The notes beneath the pieces were generated by a model. The model saw only the letters and a program-made list of their open reading frames with translations. It did not search any database and had not been told where the DNA came from. Below, piece by piece: positions 4,514-42,302 of a DNA stretch of 64,000 nt. Position 1 is the stretch's first letter. Each line of letters starts with the position of its first letter. The DNA is taken from the NCBI GenBank assembly GCA_017465885.1, contig JAFTVG010000031.1, forward strand, positions 1 through 64,000, given 5' to 3'. Source of the DNA: Clostridia bacterium. Lineage in GTDB: Bacteria; Bacillota; Clostridia; Oscillospirales; CAG-272. The translations under genes and the position numbers were made by a program.

Positions 4514-4726
4514 TTAGTGATATGCTTCGCTTGCGCTCAGCGTGATATTTTTGCTTTGCAAAAGTGATATTGCTCTACTTCATTCCGCAGTGATATTATA
4601 TTCGCCCCCAAAACTCGCGAAGCGAATATCACTCGGCGTAAGCCGAATATCACTGCGAAGCAATATAACTCGCCGAAGGCGAATATAACTGAAAAACTCC
4701 ATCTTGCAAAGCAAGATGGAGTTTTT
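4514..4726. repeat. Hairpin array C with complementary linkers, abutting tRNA-Gln
   Basis: Four left linkers carry GTGATAT or GTGATATT and four right linkers read AATATCACT or AATATAACT, again complementary between halves. Hairpins between them include TTTTGC-TTT-GCAAAA, TCGGC-GTAA-GCCGA and TCGCC-GAA-GGCGA. The terminal hairpin (4692-4726; arms ACTCCATCTTGC and GCAAGATGGAGT, flanked by A5 and T5) ends one base from the encoded CCA of the tRNA, so it also serves as the tRNA's intrinsic terminator. Same design as array B with unrelated bases. Confidence 0.85.
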
Positions 4727-4727
4727 C

Positions 4728-4803
4728 TGGCTGCGGCACTAGGATTCGAACCTAGGTAATGACGGAGTCAGAGTCCGTTGCCTTACCGCTTGGCGATGCC
4801 GCA
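4728..4803 (-). tRNA. tRNA-Gln (anticodon CUG)
   Basis: The minus strand folds as a standard cloverleaf of 76 bases with encoded CCA. The acceptor stem is TGCGGCA/TGCCGCA, the anticodon loop CTCTGAC is closed by ACGGA/TCCGT, the T-loop is TTCGAAT, and the discriminator base is G. The anticodon CUG reads CAG codons. A near-perfect promoter lies upstream and a symmetric terminator hairpin directly downstream. Confidence 0.93.
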
Positions 4804-35896: not shown

Positions 35897-36607
35897 TCAT
35901 TTCAAACGCTTATCCAGCTTCACCGCAAGCTTGGTACCAATGGACTGGAAGACCTGGACCATGACGATCAGCAGGATCACCGCGATGACCATGGTGGGGA
36001 ATTTGTAGCGGTAGTAGCCGTAATCGATGGCGATCTTACCAAGACCTCCGCCGCCAATGGCGCCGCTCATTGCCGAATACCCGAGAATGGTGGTCAAAGC
36101 GATGGTGACGTTGGAGATCAGCGAGGGAACGCTTTCGGGCAGCATCACCTTGACGATGATCTGCAGGGGCGAAGCACCCATACTCTGCGCCGCCTCGATG
36201 ATGTTGGGATTCACCTCACGAAGAGATCCTTCCACAAGTCGTGCGATAAAGGGGAATGCCGCAAAAACGAGGGGCACCACCGTTGCCATCGTGCCCACAG
36301 ACGTGCCCACGATCATTCTGGAAATGGGAATGACCATGATCATCAGAATGAGGAAAGGGACCGAGCGAAGCAGGTTGATGAGGACGTTGAGGGTCGCCAT
36401 TACGGGACGAGGAAGGGGCAACACGCCGTTTTTGTCGCCTGCAACCAGCAAAACGCCCAAAGGCAGTCCGATGACAAGTGCAAAAAAGGTAGAAAGCAGG
36501 GTGACGTAAAAGGTCTCCCAGATGGCAAGAGGAATGCCGTTGGGGTCAAGGAGGATCTCAAGGGCTTCCTTCCATTTCTCAAGGTCAAAAAGCGAATCGT
36601 AATTCAT
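35897..36607 (-). CDS. metI: Methionine ABC transporter permease
   Basis: The 236-residue membrane subunit of the MetNIQ importer has five to six hydrophobic segments and the EAA-type loop with EAAQSMGASPLQIIVKVMLPES, which contacts the ATPase. It follows metN by 3 bases and ends the operon. Together with MetN and MetQ it imports methionine. Confidence 0.93.
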   Translation of the reverse strand: MNYDSLFDLEKWKEALEILLDPNGIPLAIWETFYVTLLSTFFALVIGLPLGVLLVAGDKNGVLPLPRPVMATLNVLINLLRSVPFLILMIMVIPISRMIVGTSVGTMATVVPLVFAAFPFIARLVEGSLREVNPNIIEAAQSMGASPLQIIVKVMLPESVPSLISNVTIALTTILGYSAMSGAIGGGGLGKIAIDYGYYRYKFPTMVIAVILLIVMVQVFQSIGTKLAVKLDKRLK

Positions 36608-36610
36608 TCC

Positions 36611-37609
36611 TCACACCTCCTCCACGATCACGTCCGAAACGCCCTGCAGATACTCCAGAGCTTGCATATACTTCTCTTCTCCGCCGGGCACGCCCAAAAG
36701 CATGGTGCCGTACACCTTATCGTCCACGCATCTGGTGGTTGCCGACAGGATGTTGGTCAAGATCTTCTTTTCTGCCGCCATGGTGGCGATCAACGGAGTT
36801 CCCGCAGAGTGGGCACCGTTGAAGATCAGGCGGATGCGCTTTTCATTTGCCGGGTTGGAGACCATTTCGTCTGCGCCGTTGGGGAAGACAAGACGTCTTG
36901 CCGCCGCAGACTTCGGACTTGAGAAGACGGTGCCCACAAGTCCTTCCTCCGCAACCTCGCCGCCGTCAAGAATGGCGACCTTATTGCAGATCTCCTGCAC
37001 CACGCTCATCTGGTGGGTGATGACCACCACGGTAATGCCTAATTTTTTATTGATATCCTTGATCAACTCAAGGATGGAGTGGGTGGTATTGGGGTCAAGG
37101 GCAGAGGTCGCCTCATCGCAAAGCAGGACCTTGGGGTTGGTTGCCAGCGCTCTTGCAATGGCAACTCTTTGCTGTTGGCCTCCCGAAAGCTGTGCGGGAT
37201 ATGCCTTTGCCTTGTCGGGCAGTCCCACCAGCTCCAAAAGCTCCATCGCCTTTTTCTTAGCGTCGGCAGACTTCATTCCCGCCAGCTCCATGGGGAAGCA
37301 AACGTTCTTTAAGCAGTTTCTCTGCATCAGCAGGTTGAAGCCCTGAAAGATCATGGTGATCTCTCTTCTTGCTTCTCTGAGCCCCTTTGCCGACAGCGAG
37401 CCCATGTCCTTTCCGTCGATGATCACGCTTCCTTCGCTCGGTCTTTCAAGCATATTGATGCAACGCACCAGCGTGCTCTTTCCCGCACCGCTCATACCGA
37501 TGATACCGTAGATATCGCCGTCCTCAATGGTGAGATCAATATTCTTCAGTGCCTCCACCTTGCCGCCGGCGGTCTGAAAGGTTTTTGACAGTTTTACGAT
37601 TTCGATCAT
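36611..37609 (-). CDS. metN: Methionine ABC transporter ATP-binding subunit
   Basis: The 332-residue ATPase has Walker A GMSGAGKS (~38-45), signature LSGGQQQRVAIARAL, Walker B VLLCDEATSALDP and a C-terminal NIL/ACT-like domain (from ~250) that in this family senses methionine and inhibits transport. The segment QTAGGKVEALKNIDL near the N-terminus is typical of MetN. It lies between metQ and metI. Confidence 0.94.
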   Translation of the reverse strand: MIEIVKLSKTFQTAGGKVEALKNIDLTIEDGDIYGIIGMSGAGKSTLVRCINMLERPSEGSVIIDGKDMGSLSAKGLREARREITMIFQGFNLLMQRNCLKNVCFPMELAGMKSADAKKKAMELLELVGLPDKAKAYPAQLSGGQQQRVAIARALATNPKVLLCDEATSALDPNTTHSILELIKDINKKLGITVVVITHQMSVVQEICNKVAILDGGEVAEEGLVGTVFSSPKSAAARRLVFPNGADEMVSNPANEKRIRLIFNGAHSAGTPLIATMAAEKKILTNILSATTRCVDDKVYGTMLLGVPGGEEKYMQALEYLQGVSDVIVEEV

Positions 37610-37708: not shown

Positions 37709-38569
37709 TTACTTCAGCTCAGCCAGAGTCTTGCCCTCTGCACCGTAAAGACCCATAGGCTCAACGTGTACGCCAAGGATGTTTACGATGTGGGTATTGT
37801 TCTGTGCATTGAAGTCGTCCAGATAAGGAACGTGCTGGAAGTAGTTGCAGTCTACGTCGCCGTTTTCAACAACCAGGTTGGGCTGAACGTAGTCGGTGAA
37901 CTCTCTGATCTCCAGGGTGATGTTCTTTGCTGCAAGGATGGTCTTTGCAATGGCAAGGATCTCAGCGTGGGGAGTGGGGGATGCTGCAACGGAGATCTTG
38001 GTGCCTGCCAGTGCCTCGTAGTCGATGGCTGCATCGTAGCCGTCGCCGGGGTTTTCAACAACGCTTACAACAGATCCGCCGTAGGTGTTCTTGATGTAGT
38101 CGGCAACCTGCTGGCTCTTTAAAGCTGCAGCAAGAGCCTGGAACTTGGGAGCGGTCTCGTTGCCTTCCTTTACGCACAGGATGTTTACGTATGCAGATGC
38201 CGAGCCCTCCAGAGCCAGAGCGTCCTCAGCGGGGTTCAGCTCTGCCTGAACTGCAAAGTTGGTGTTGATCACTGCATAGTCGATCTTGGGGTCTTCAAGA
38301 GCCTGGGGCAGCTGAGCAGCTTCCATTTCCTTGAACTCGATGTTCTTGGGGTTGGAGGTGATATCGCGGATGGTAGCGGTGATGCCTGCTGCGTCGTCCA
38401 GCTCGATGATGCCCTGAGCTTCCAGCAGAAGAAGTGCTCTTGCTTCGTTGGTGGTGTCGTTGGGGATGGCGATCACGATCTTACCGTCGTCGCCGTTGCA
38501 GGATGCGAATACTACGAGAGAGGTGAGCAGTACTGCCAGCACTGCAAGGATGGATACGATTCTTTTCAT
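37709..38569 (-). CDS. metQ: Methionine-binding lipoprotein MetQ
   Basis: This 286-residue lipoprotein (lipobox VFASC, Cys ~24) belongs to the NlpA/MetQ family. It has IAIPNDTTNEARALLLLEAQG near the N-terminus, the DYAVINTNFAVQAELNP segment, and FTDYVQPNLVVENGDVDCNYFQHVPYLD with the sequence repeated in reverse domain order. Compared with canonical members, blocks such as the C-terminal VTPHAEILAI and YVQPN appear late and others early, so see the finding on apparent domain order. It binds methionine outside the cell and hands it to MetI. AAGGAGAAAC precedes the ATG. Its long leader carries a methionine-rich peptide and terminator. Confidence 0.9.
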   Translation of the reverse strand: MKRIVSILAVLAVLLTSLVVFASCNGDDGKIVIAIPNDTTNEARALLLLEAQGIIELDDAAGITATIRDITSNPKNIEFKEMEAAQLPQALEDPKIDYAVINTNFAVQAELNPAEDALALEGSASAYVNILCVKEGNETAPKFQALAAALKSQQVADYIKNTYGGSVVSVVENPGDGYDAAIDYEALAGTKISVAASPTPHAEILAIAKTILAAKNITLEIREFTDYVQPNLVVENGDVDCNYFQHVPYLDDFNAQNNTHIVNILGVHVEPMGLYGAEGKTLAELK

Positions 38570-38680: not shown

Positions 38681-38737
38681 TCACATTCGCGACCACAAGC
38701 AAGTGACGCCTCTGACCTTGGAAACGGAGAACTTCAT
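38681..38737 (-). CDS. 18-residue peptide between the attenuator and metQ
   Basis: ATG at 38737 follows a very strong GAAGGAGG site and reads MKFSVSKVRGVTCLWSRM, ending in TGA. It lies after the leader terminator, so it is translated only from transcripts that read through. It may be a second leader, a translational regulator of the downstream mRNA or a free peptide. It has one cysteine, one tryptophan and four basic residues and shows no export signal. It is too short to classify; the ribosome binding site is the main evidence. Confidence 0.45.
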   Translation of the reverse strand: MKFSVSKVRGVTCLWSRM

Positions 38738-38777: not shown

Positions 38778-38806
38778 AAAAAAAAACGGGAAGCCCGCGG
38801 GCTTCC
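38778..38806 (-). terminator. Leader terminator of the methionine transport operon
   Basis: On the minus strand the 18-base palindrome GGAAGCCCGCGGGCTTCC is followed by C, G-rich junction and nine T residues: a strong intrinsic terminator placed 41 bases after the leader peptide stop and before metQ. Parts of the leader (CGGGC in codons 27-29) can pair with GCCCG in its left arm, so an alternative antiterminator fold is possible. Confidence 0.88.
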
Positions 38807-38846
38807 TTCAAATAACCGGGATCAGAATAAACTGATCAACGTTTTT

Positions 38847-38942
38847 TCAGGATAAGTGCCCGGGAAAAACAGCGCAGGAAAGCATGCACATGGGACGCAT
38901 GTACATCATATTCATGGACATCTCGATGCGTACGTTTTTCAT
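38847..38942 (-). CDS. Methionine-rich leader peptide of the metQNI operon
   Basis: The 31-codon ORF begins MKNVRIEMSMNMMYMRPM, continues CMLSC and ends in TGA. Eight of 31 residues are Met, with seven Met codons among codons 8-20. It has a good AAAGGAG site 8 bases upstream, lies about 25 bases from the predicted transcription start and is followed by a strong terminator. This is the classic design of a ribosome-mediated transcription attenuator sensing charged tRNA-Met. The operon behind it encodes a methionine importer, which fits. The peptide itself is not expected to have another role. Confidence 0.8.
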   Translation of the reverse strand: MKNVRIEMSMNMMYMRPMCMLSCAVFPGHLS

Positions 38943-38972
38943 ATCGGCACTCCTTTCAAAAACTATGGGCAT

Positions 38973-39001
38973 ATCATAGCACACAAATCCCGCGCTGTCA
39001 A
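38973..39001 (-). promoter_or_regulatory. Promoter of the metQNI leader and operon
   Basis: TTGACA (39001-38996) and TATGAT (38978-38973) on the minus strand, spacer 17. The predicted start near 38966 gives a short untranslated stretch before the leader peptide. The following ~130 bases to the divergent promoter at 39133 are AT-rich and hold nothing I recognise. Confidence 0.88.
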
Positions 39002-39215: not shown

Positions 39216-40049
39216 ATGAAAAAGATTCTTGCACTTGTGCTGGCAGCTCTGATGATGCTGTCCGCAACCCTGGTATTCGCTTCCTGCGATACCCCTTCCA
39301 CCACCGACAACAAGGGTGCCGCTCCCTCTGCATCCGAAGAGTCCGCTTCCGATGAGGCTGACGGCACTGACGGAGAAAAGCAGGTTCTGAAGATGGCTAC
39401 CAACGCTTACTTCCCTCCCTACGAGTACTACGAGGGCGACAAGATCGTTGGTATCGACGCTGAGATCGCTGCTGCCATCGCCGAAAAGCTGGGCATGGAG
39501 CTGGTGATCGAGGATATGGCGTTCGACTCCATCCTGACCGCTGTTGAAAACGGCTCGGTTGACTTCGGTATGGCAGGTATGACCGTAAACCCCGACAGAC
39601 TCAAGAGCGTCAACTTCACCATTTCCTACGCTAAGGGCGTTCAGGTCGTTATCGTTAAGGAAGATTCCCCCATCACCACCGTCGACGATCTGTTTGCTGA
39701 CGGCGCAACCTACAAGGTAGGCGTTCAGACCGGTACCACCGGCGACAGCTACTCCTCCTCTGACTTCGGCGATGCACGCGTTTCCAGATACGTTTCCGGT
39801 AACGAGGCTGTTGCTGCTCTTCTGCGCGGCGACGTTGACTGCGTGATCATCGACAACCAGCCCGCAAAGTCCTACGTTGCAAACAACGAGGGCACCAAGA
39901 TCCTTGCTACCTCCTACGCTGACGAGGACTACGCTATCTGCGTTTCCAAGACCAACGAGGCTCTGCTTGAAAAGCTGGACACCGCGATCTACGCCCTCAT
40001 CGAGGACGGCACCATCGCAGGTATCGTTGCAAAGTACATCAAGGAATAA
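39216..40049 (+). CDS. Polar amino acid ABC transporter substrate-binding lipoprotein
   Basis: This 277-residue lipoprotein (lipobox VFASC, Cys ~25) is a family 3 solute-binding protein: ATNAYFPPYEYYEGDKIVGIDAEIAAAIAEKLG at the ligand cleft, GMTVNPDRLKSVNF, and KVGVQTGTTGDSY are typical. It captures an amino acid such as glutamine, arginine or cystine; the exact ligand cannot be read. AAGGAG precedes the ATG. It is the first gene of an operon with a permease and an ATPase; a partial terminator follows it. Confidence 0.92.
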   Translation: MKKILALVLAALMMLSATLVFASCDTPSTTDNKGAAPSASEESASDEADGTDGEKQVLKMATNAYFPPYEYYEGDKIVGIDAEIAAAIAEKLGMELVIEDMAFDSILTAVENGSVDFGMAGMTVNPDRLKSVNFTISYAKGVQVVIVKEDSPITTVDDLFADGATYKVGVQTGTTGDSYSSSDFGDARVSRYVSGNEAVAALLRGDVDCVIIDNQPAKSYVANNEGTKILATSYADEDYAICVSKTNEALLEKLDTAIYALIEDGTIAGIVAKYIKE

Positions 40050-40074
40050 TTTCCCAAGGAATCATTTCCACCCC

Positions 40075-40106
40075 GGGGTTGTTCGGACTTCAGAACAACC
40101 CCTTTT
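40075..40106 (+). terminator. Partial terminator between binding protein and permease genes
   Basis: GGGGTTGTTC and GAACAACCCC enclose an eight-base loop and are followed by TTTT. The short T-run suggests leaky termination that lowers expression of the downstream genes. Confidence 0.75.
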
Positions 40107-40144
40107 ACCTTTAAATACTTACGAAAGGACGGCAGAGCACGTAT

Positions 40145-41554
40145 ATGAATATGAAAAAGAAGCCGAGCCTGATTACCATTATCACAGCCGTCATTCTCAG
40201 CCTGGCGCTTCTTGGCGGTGTGATCTTCCTTGGTGCAGAGCTGATCATCGAGCTTGGCGACAGAAGCCCTGCTAAGCAGATCACCACGCAGCAGGCAGAG
40301 ACCCTGATAAACGACACCCTTGCAAAGCTCCCTGCCGCCACTGCATCGGGCACCAAATTCGTCAAGGAACAGATCAAATTCAAGGTTACCGATATCTCCT
40401 ACGGTGACTACAAGGACATCCACATCACCTGCAGCTACGAGACCATCGGCGCAGGCGATGCCTTCCTGAAATATAAAAACGAGATCCTGACCGATGCCTA
40501 CGCCTACTATACCGAGCAAGGAAGCTCCTCTATCAACGCCACCGCCCTGCAGATCGCCTTCAAGGATCGGGTGTGCGGTGCCATTATGGAGGCAGAGCCC
40601 ATCAAGGACAGCCTGACCCTGACGGCGTATGAGCTGGCAGACGGCAGTCTTTCGGTGCACCTTTCCGATCAAACGGTAGACGCCCTTTACGGCGGTCTTC
40701 TTTCGGCACAGAAAAATCTGAACGACACCAAATTCATCAACATCGACGGCAGACAGGTGGACATCACCAATTTAACCACCCTGCGCACAGGAATGATGAA
40801 CCTGATCGCCTTCAAGAACTACGACAGCGAGGTGCCCGAAACGTCAGGCTGGCTGATCGCGGCTCTGAGCGACTTTGCCGATGAGTTTTACAGAAACTTC
40901 ATCGAAAAGGATCGTTGGCAGTACATCGTCAAGGGTCTGGGAACGACCCTTGCCATCACCGGATGTGCCATGCTGATCGGTGTGGTTCTCGGCTTCCTTG
41001 TTGCCGTGACCCGCGTTTCCCACGACAAAAACGGCTCCTTCCCCATCCTCAACGCCCTCTGTCAGGGATACCTGTCGCTGATCCGCGGCACCCCTGTTAT
41101 GGTCCAGCTGCTCATCATTTATTTCGTTCTCCTTGCACCCTTGCAGATCAACAAATTCATTGCCGCAGTCATCTGCTTCGGCATCAACTCGGGTGCATAC
41201 GTAGCCGAAATCGTGCGTGGCGGCATCATGTCTGTGGACGGCGGACAGATCGAGGCAGGCCGAAGCCTTGGACTCAGCTATCCCCAGACGATGCTCTCCA
41301 TCGTCTTCCCCCAGGCGTTCAAGGCAGTGCTTCCCTCTCTGGCAAACGAGTTTATCGTGCTGCTTAAAGAAACCTCGGTCGCCTTCTACATCGGCGTGGC
41401 AGACCTGACTCAAAGCGGTATCCTGATCCGCTCCATCACCTTCAGTAACTTTATGCCCCTGGTTGCCATCGCGGTCATTTATTGGATCATGGTGGTCATC
41501 CTGACAAAGCTTGTATCGCTTCTTGAAAGGAGATTAAGACAAAGTGAACGCTGA
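40145..41554 (+). CDS. Amino acid ABC permease with a large extracytoplasmic N-terminal domain
   Basis: The 469-residue protein has a first membrane helix (~8-32), about 200 residues predicted outside the cell, and then a complete His/Glu/Gln/Arg-type permease domain from ~residue 255 ([40 protein letters not shown] as EAA loop). Ordinary permeases of this family have ~220 residues. The extra domain lacks the family 3 binding-protein hallmarks and contains paired segments ([29 protein letters not shown]). It may aid docking of the binding protein; this is inference. Confidence 0.87.
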
Positions 41555-42302
41555 ACAAAAGGTACAGAACAACGAAGTAATGATCTCCGTAAAGGATTTA
41601 AAGAAGAACTTCGGCAAGCTTGAGGTGCTCAAGGGCATCGACTGCGACATCAAAAAGGGTGAGGTCGTCTGTGTCATCGGACCCTCGGGCTCGGGAAAAA
41701 GCACCTTTTTAAGATGCCTCAACCTGCTGGAGGAGCCCAACGGCGGAAGCATCTGCTTCAAGGGCACCGACATCACCGCTAAAGGCACCAACATCAACAA
41801 GTACCGTCAGAAGCTTGGAATGGTCTTCCAGCAGTTCAATCTCTTCCCCCATATGACCATTTTAAAAAACCTGACCTTTGCTCCCGTCAAGCTTGGAAAA
41901 ATGAGTAAGGCTGAGGCTGAGGAAAAGGCAATGCAGCTCCTTGCAAGAGTGGGTCTTGCCGACAGAGCAGACGCCTATCCCGCACAGCTTTCGGGCGGAC
42001 AAAAGCAGAGAGTTGCCATCGTCAGAGCCCTTTGCATGAGCCCCGAGGTCCTGCTCTTTGACGAGCCCACCTCCGCCCTTGACCCCGAAATGGTGGGCGA
42101 GGTGCTGGACGTTATGAAGGATCTTGCAAAGTCGGGTATGACCATGGTGGTAGTTACCCACGAAATGGGATTTGCAAAGGAAGTGGGCGATCGGGTGATC
42201 TTTATGGACGAAGGATACATCGTGGAGGAAGGCATTCCTTCCGAAGTATTCAGCGCACCTAAAAGCGAACGTCTGCGGAGCTTCTTATCCAAGGTTTTAT
42301 GA
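41544..42302 (+). CDS. Polar amino acid ABC transporter ATP-binding protein
   Basis: The 252-residue ATPase has Walker A GPSGSGKS (~44-51), Q-loop [11 protein letters not shown], signature [15 protein letters not shown] and Walker [14 protein letters not shown], the GlnQ/ArtM type. It starts at GTG, overlapping the permease gene by 11 bases, with GAAAGGAG upstream, so translation is coupled. It energises uptake of the ligand of the binding protein at 39216. Confidence 0.94.

Follow-up and report, generated by a model that had tools for sequence, protein, structure and literature searches.

What controls the methionine importer operon metQNI in a member of the Clostridia when the usual methionine regulators are missing from its upstream region? 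Methionine genes in Bacillota are usually under the control of SAM-I (S-box) riboswitches or Met T-boxes, both of which act, as is proposed here for the leader, by premature transcription termination; neither is found at the metQNI leader of the window, the whole stretch of 64,000 nucleotides that was analysed. The first-pass annotation had seen no such element at the site and Rfam agrees, with no match to a SAM riboswitch or a T-box at the gathering score or at any E-value up to 10. Covariance models likewise gave no SAM riboswitch or T-box match at 20 relative loci. Elsewhere in the same genome (a 1.92-Mb assembly, about 81% complete) SAM riboswitches are present, one of them upstream of metK. 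A different use of this element was observed in genome G000, where two SAM riboswitches (L062 on contig C37 and L063 on contig C7) precede small, mutually similar proteins of unassigned function (about 104–120 aa, motif VYL.DE.T..QF), an odd setting for a SAM riboswitch.

All elements of the leader are located on the minus strand, in the intergenic region that separates metQNI from a divergent amino-acid ABC operon. The promoter (TTGACA, a 17-nt spacer and TATGAT; 38973–39001, 11/12) carries a TG before the −10 box (extended −10); a consensus promoter had been claimed here, its strand unstated. The Shine–Dalgarno (SD) sequence of the leader, AAAGGAG (38956–38950), together with GGAGUGCC (38953–38946), the 5′ strand of a helix named P1, forms strand 1 (38946–38956), identified from the sequence, the MFE fold and a test of own versus swapped partners. 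It is followed by the Met leader ORF, MKNVRIEMSMNMMYMRPMCMLSCAVFPGHLS (38847–38942), with 31 codons, a TGA stop at 38849–38847, homologues in the genus and 46 distinct counterparts in the wider set. The putative regulatory Met codons are numbers 8, 10, 12, 13, 15, 18 and 20 (38883–38921), part of which are taken in by a hairpin of the form AUG-UGC/CGC/UAC-AUG. Strand 2, CCGGGCACUUAUCCUG (38848–38863), has as alternative partners the SD strand of the leader or the 5′ arm of the intrinsic terminator. This terminator (38778–38806) consists of GGAAGCC CGCG GGCUUCC (38806–38789), CG and U9, and its 5′ arm is strand 3. The reading frame with its good ribosome binding site and seven Met codons, as well as the terminator with nine T residues, were thus all present as first annotated.

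The genes behind the leader were annotated as a methionine importer, an assignment upheld by Pfam and NCBIfam: metQ (37709–38569, minus strand) encodes a methionine-binding lipoprotein (PF03180), metN (36611–37609, minus strand) an ATPase with a C-terminal NIL domain (PF00005 and PF09383; top match TIGR02314), and metI (35897–36607, minus strand) a permease (PF00528; top match PRK10782 MetI, 209.9 bits against a cut-off of 212). MetQ, MetN and MetI are the best NCBIfam models in each case, though with scores under the strict NCBIfam cut-offs. The divergent operon (39216–42302, plus strand) comprises a binding protein, a permease and an ATPase, all identified solely by inspection of their sequences, and the specificity of this transporter, which shares the intergenic region, may relate to sulfur amino acids. 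In another part of the window, a Gut-1 sRNA family match in Rfam adjoins a tRNA gene (4621–4691 and 4731–4803, both on the minus strand).

The metQNI leader is very probably, judging from its sequence and that of its relatives, a ribosome-mediated transcription attenuator whose input is the amount of charged elongator Met-tRNA available. The features of such a device are present: a short leader ORF that lies ahead of the operon and has a promoter and an SD; a conserved run of the codon for the operon's amino acid, the rest diverging; an intrinsic terminator between the leader and the first gene; a strand past the regulatory codons with complementarity to the 5′ arm of the terminator; and a co-evolving strand 1:strand 2 protector in which, unlike trp, strand 1 is the SD/start region. 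In the proposed mechanism, strand 1 would be this region, strand 2 the late leader, and strands 3 and 4 the 5′ and 3′ arms of the terminator. When methionine is plentiful, the ribosome would pass the Met codons, reach the stop and mask strand 2, so that the terminator folds and metQNI is off. When methionine is short, the ribosome would stall on the AUG run while a following ribosome occupies the leader start; strand 2, left free, would pair with the terminator 5′ arm and RNA polymerase would read through into metQNI. If the leader is untranslated, strand 2 would pair with its own SD (P1) and the terminator would form. The location of the Met run at codons 8–20 would leave space for the second ribosome. 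We infer that the leader responds to methionine, which way it responds, that uncharged Met-tRNA causes the stalling and that a second ribosome is required.

The conservation of the leader supports this proposal. Met-rich leaders, 46 of them distinct, were found upstream of metQ in many genera of Clostridia. The peptide of the window recurs in two congeners with identities of 97% and 72%. Divergent leaders are widespread: 19 of the family's 30 best metQ loci have one. In a second collection, made up of 80 named metQ loci whose titles are nearly all from Clostridia or relatives, an SD-preceded Met-rich short ORF occurred in 33 upstream regions, compared with 7/1140 random windows and 4/80 antisense sequences, which is far above chance; the leader is missing from the other 47, more than half. 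Its carriers include an isolate, Oscillibacter sp. ER4. The leader peptides have no counterpart among the NCBIfam and Pfam models, nor did the plasmid collection yield a match to the leader. Several of the leaderless metQ loci (L033, L054, L055, L057, L058 and L060) display, just before the promoter, a palindrome like TATAGATT-NN-ATCTATA, which is frequent among such loci and is possibly a transcription-factor operator in place of an attenuator.

Conservation of the Met codons in orthologous leaders had been named beforehand as a test that could refute the annotation; they are kept in frame across the 46 leaders while the other residues diverge. Every leader has 5–9 in-frame Met codons per 15-codon window, and in 42 non-redundant leaders AUG occurs 313 times in frame, against 13 and 3 in the two remaining frames. 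Within the same 42, the best 15-residue window is 45.9% Met, a figure inflated because the window was picked for its Met content, and the remainder 3.2%. Nearly every gap between leaders has a length divisible by three. Mean column identity of the peptides is 37%, and beyond the Met positions there is no fixed sequence. A promoter with at least 10/12 matches lies within 110 nt upstream in 40/40 leaders (5% in antisense), and a terminator-like hairpin follows each of the 46, 11–49 nt past the stop codon, those at L035, L076 and L139 scoring weakly.

The RNA of these leaders carries a second layer of conservation. In predicted folds, P1 joins the SD and the spacer to a segment some 30 nt past the last Met codon; inside it, the Met codons fold into a hairpin of the AUG-UGC-AUG type. 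Across 41 leaders, the SD strand pairs with the 3′ part with a probability of 0.67, versus 0.39 for shuffled 3′ parts (p 6e-11), and it fits its own strand 2 better than swapped partners (z −8.4, 0 of 50,000 permutations). Near-duplicates were dropped, which controls for shared ancestry in part but does not eliminate it. The P1 pairing was replicated in 15 leaders known from the peptide profile only (p 6e-5; swapped test in 12, p 0.049). The complementarity between CGGGC in the leader and GCCCG in the terminator, pointed out in the first-pass annotation, is real, CCGGGCACUUAUCC pairing with GGAAGCCCG. Throughout the set, the complementarity of strand 2 to the terminator 5′ arm exceeds that of shuffles (mean z −0.70, t-test p about 1e-4) and also that of swapped partners (p 0.011–0.013), a pairing that is weak per locus and significant across the leaders. 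No such link was detected between the terminator arm and the SD strand in the swapped-partner test (p 0.16). Taken alone, the window's own sequence stays within its shuffles (P1 0.62 versus 0.55; strand 2:3 p 0.125), and the support for both pairings in the window is comparative. The attenuator interpretation of the first-pass annotation is supported by in-frame Met codons, terminator-like hairpins and antiterminator complementarity, with an addition to the earlier picture, from which it was absent: the rival strand for the antiterminator segment is the ribosome-binding site of the leader.

RNAalifold, applied to a MAFFT alignment of 39 leaders, gave no more than one short hairpin, since the 3′ strands fail to align. 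The codons within the inner hairpin show a bias of their own: Cys between two Mets is encoded by UGC in a ratio of 44:1 (49:22 at other positions), with CGC and UAC as the alternating codons. These positions therefore appear to serve the RNA hairpin and do not imply cysteine sensing, which was set aside as a candidate.

Whether the proposed strands can switch depends on how the folding is modelled. In equilibrium folds of the complete leader with masked ribosomes, the terminator is favoured in the majority of relatives, even when a ribosome is stalled, and the decision for antitermination must therefore be kinetic. Attenuator decisions are generally held to be kinetic. A nascent-RNA model was considered, in which the RNA ends at the terminator loop and the mean pairing probability of strand 3 with strand 2 is read over 40 leaders. 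With the Met run and the start each occupied by a ribosome, antiterminator pairing was 0.69 (0.87 in the window); with a ribosome at the stop it was 0.25 (0.14), and with no ribosomes 0.41 (0.54). A stalled ribosome alone gave 0.42, no rise over the 0.41 of the ribosome-free RNA, which means that the occupied start matters in the model. As to the suggestion that stalling frees the 3′ part of the leader for the terminator, to be checked by computing alternative folds, the folds give no support for switching at equilibrium, and the nascent-RNA model gives it with an occupied start.

The same data bear on other ways in which a Met-rich leader could work. The peptide itself could arrest the ribosome: free methionine, SAM or a metal (copper, for example) would induce a stall in the tunnel, and this stall, not uncharged Met-tRNA, would switch the terminator. 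Residues recur after the Met run (A-x-F-S-like), M-C-M is a recurring motif, and Met/Cys motifs can bind Cu(I). Against this, peptides with a mean column identity of 37% contain nothing fixed beyond their Met positions, the UGC preference of the Cys codons and their alternation with CGC and UAC point to RNA pairing and not to peptide chemistry, and the genes downstream are methionine genes, not metal genes; we regard peptide arrest as very unlikely. It is scarcely credible that the element is a ligand- or protein-binding, riboswitch-like RNA whose ORF arises spuriously from an AUG-rich hairpin: conservation of P1 and of the AUG-UGC-AUG hairpin would be expected of it, but not the concentration of AUGs in a single frame, the gaps in multiples of three, the SD and start codon or the Met runs outside the hairpin, and no Rfam riboswitch matches the site at E ≤ 10.

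The dependence of modelled switching on start-site occupancy, together with an SD embedded in the co-evolving P1, raises the further idea that P1 gates the ribosome-binding site of the leader and that the switch mainly reads the supply of fMet-tRNA through the rate of initiation, the internal AUGs being secondary. Sensing of fMet-tRNA has a proposed precedent in the streptococcal fthC uORF (PMC11109978). A switch of this type would leave unexplained why every leader holds 5–9 in-frame Met codons in a 15-codon window, and we consider it highly improbable.

Whole genomes from the family, the order and the class were scanned with a peptide profile based on alignment A3, which holds 27 leaders. 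The profile returned 17 non-training matches at E ≤ 1e-3, and 16 of the 17 were upstream of methionine genes. These extend beyond the metQNI of the first-pass annotation to metY and metN: leaders were found before metQ (L148, L152), before metY, encoding O-acetylhomoserine sulfhydrylase (L146, L147, L154, L155, L171, L173–L176), and before metN (L165, L168, L169, L170, L172). HMM searches confirmed MetN at L168 and L172 and MetY at L173, and the remaining genes were assigned by resemblance to these three. Some genomes contain two leaders, before metQ and metY in G134 and G479 and before metY and metN in G026. L149 (E 9e-4), L150 and L151 (E 6e-3) were rejected as chance matches lacking the leader anatomy.

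A second short ORF, absent from the first-pass annotation, lies between the terminator and metQ (38681–38737, minus strand). It reads MKFSVSKVRGVTCLWSRM, has 18 codons and a GGAGG, and contains the motif CGAATGTG, an 8-mer that occurs in 20/46 Met-leader loci versus 1/46 in antisense. The typical peptide, located between the terminator and the gene, is M..xFEKLVRANFRFGRMC. Besides the window, it was observed upstream of metQ at L040, L046, L076, L086, L094, L115, L119 and others, upstream of metY at L146, L147 and L154, and also at metQ loci without a Met leader. Its nucleotides seem to be conserved beyond the peptide because the codons read Arg-Met and then Cys or stop. No NCBIfam or Pfam model matches it, and no paper on it was found in the literature search.

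The closest parallels to the metQNI leader are the long-known ribosome-mediated attenuators of Proteobacteria (the leader peptides of trp, his, leu, thr and ilv), in which a short ORF likewise abounds in codons for the amino acid under control and competing strands are likewise combined with an intrinsic terminator. The metQNI leader differs from them in its Met codon, its host in the Clostridia and its strand 1, which is its own SD/start and not the codon run. For trp, termination is the default without leader translation (PMC1183508), and the default proposed for metQNI agrees. The same logic is found in Gram-positive bacteria that otherwise use T-boxes, in the leucine-rich leader attenuator that precedes ilv in S. 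aureus (PMC5794164) and in the histidine leaders before hisS/hisZ in bacilli (PMC2965389). The metQNI leader is distinguished from these by its amino acid and by unrelated leader sequences. We know of no RBS-paired strand 1 in the Leu or His leader attenuators of Bacillota. For methionine supply, sensing via fMet-tRNA has been suggested for the fthC uORF motif of Streptococcus, whose description in the relevant passages of PMC11109978 includes no Met-codon run, unlike the metQNI leader. Actinobacterial cys leader peptides, suggested to sense sulfur amino acids, are cysteine runs without evident terminators, whereas the metQNI leader joins a Met run to a terminator; the same survey of Actinobacteria lists no leader peptide for methionine (PMC1262725). 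In an incomplete search, no report of a methionine leader-peptide attenuator was found, and an earlier mention is possible in Lopatovskaya et al. (2010), a large attenuator survey as cited in PMC4833913.

At first sight, a leader peptide that attenuates in response to methionine contradicts itself: any leader has to begin with Met, and starvation should reduce initiation as well. The existence of a Met-run leader family across many genera suggests that bacteria have solved this apparent contradiction, and the RBS-paired strand suggests how. More tentatively, these leaders may define a class of Met attenuators with their own RBS as a competing strand, in which the rate of initiation (fMet-tRNA) and elongation at Met codons (Met-tRNA) would be joined in one switch and which would govern a small regulon of metQNI, metN and metY across Clostridia, beside SAM riboswitches. 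The attenuator would give these cells a methionine sensor at the level of tRNA alongside their sensors at the level of SAM, which raises the question of when each of them is used, and it would provide a likely function for small ORFs in many uncultured gut Clostridia.
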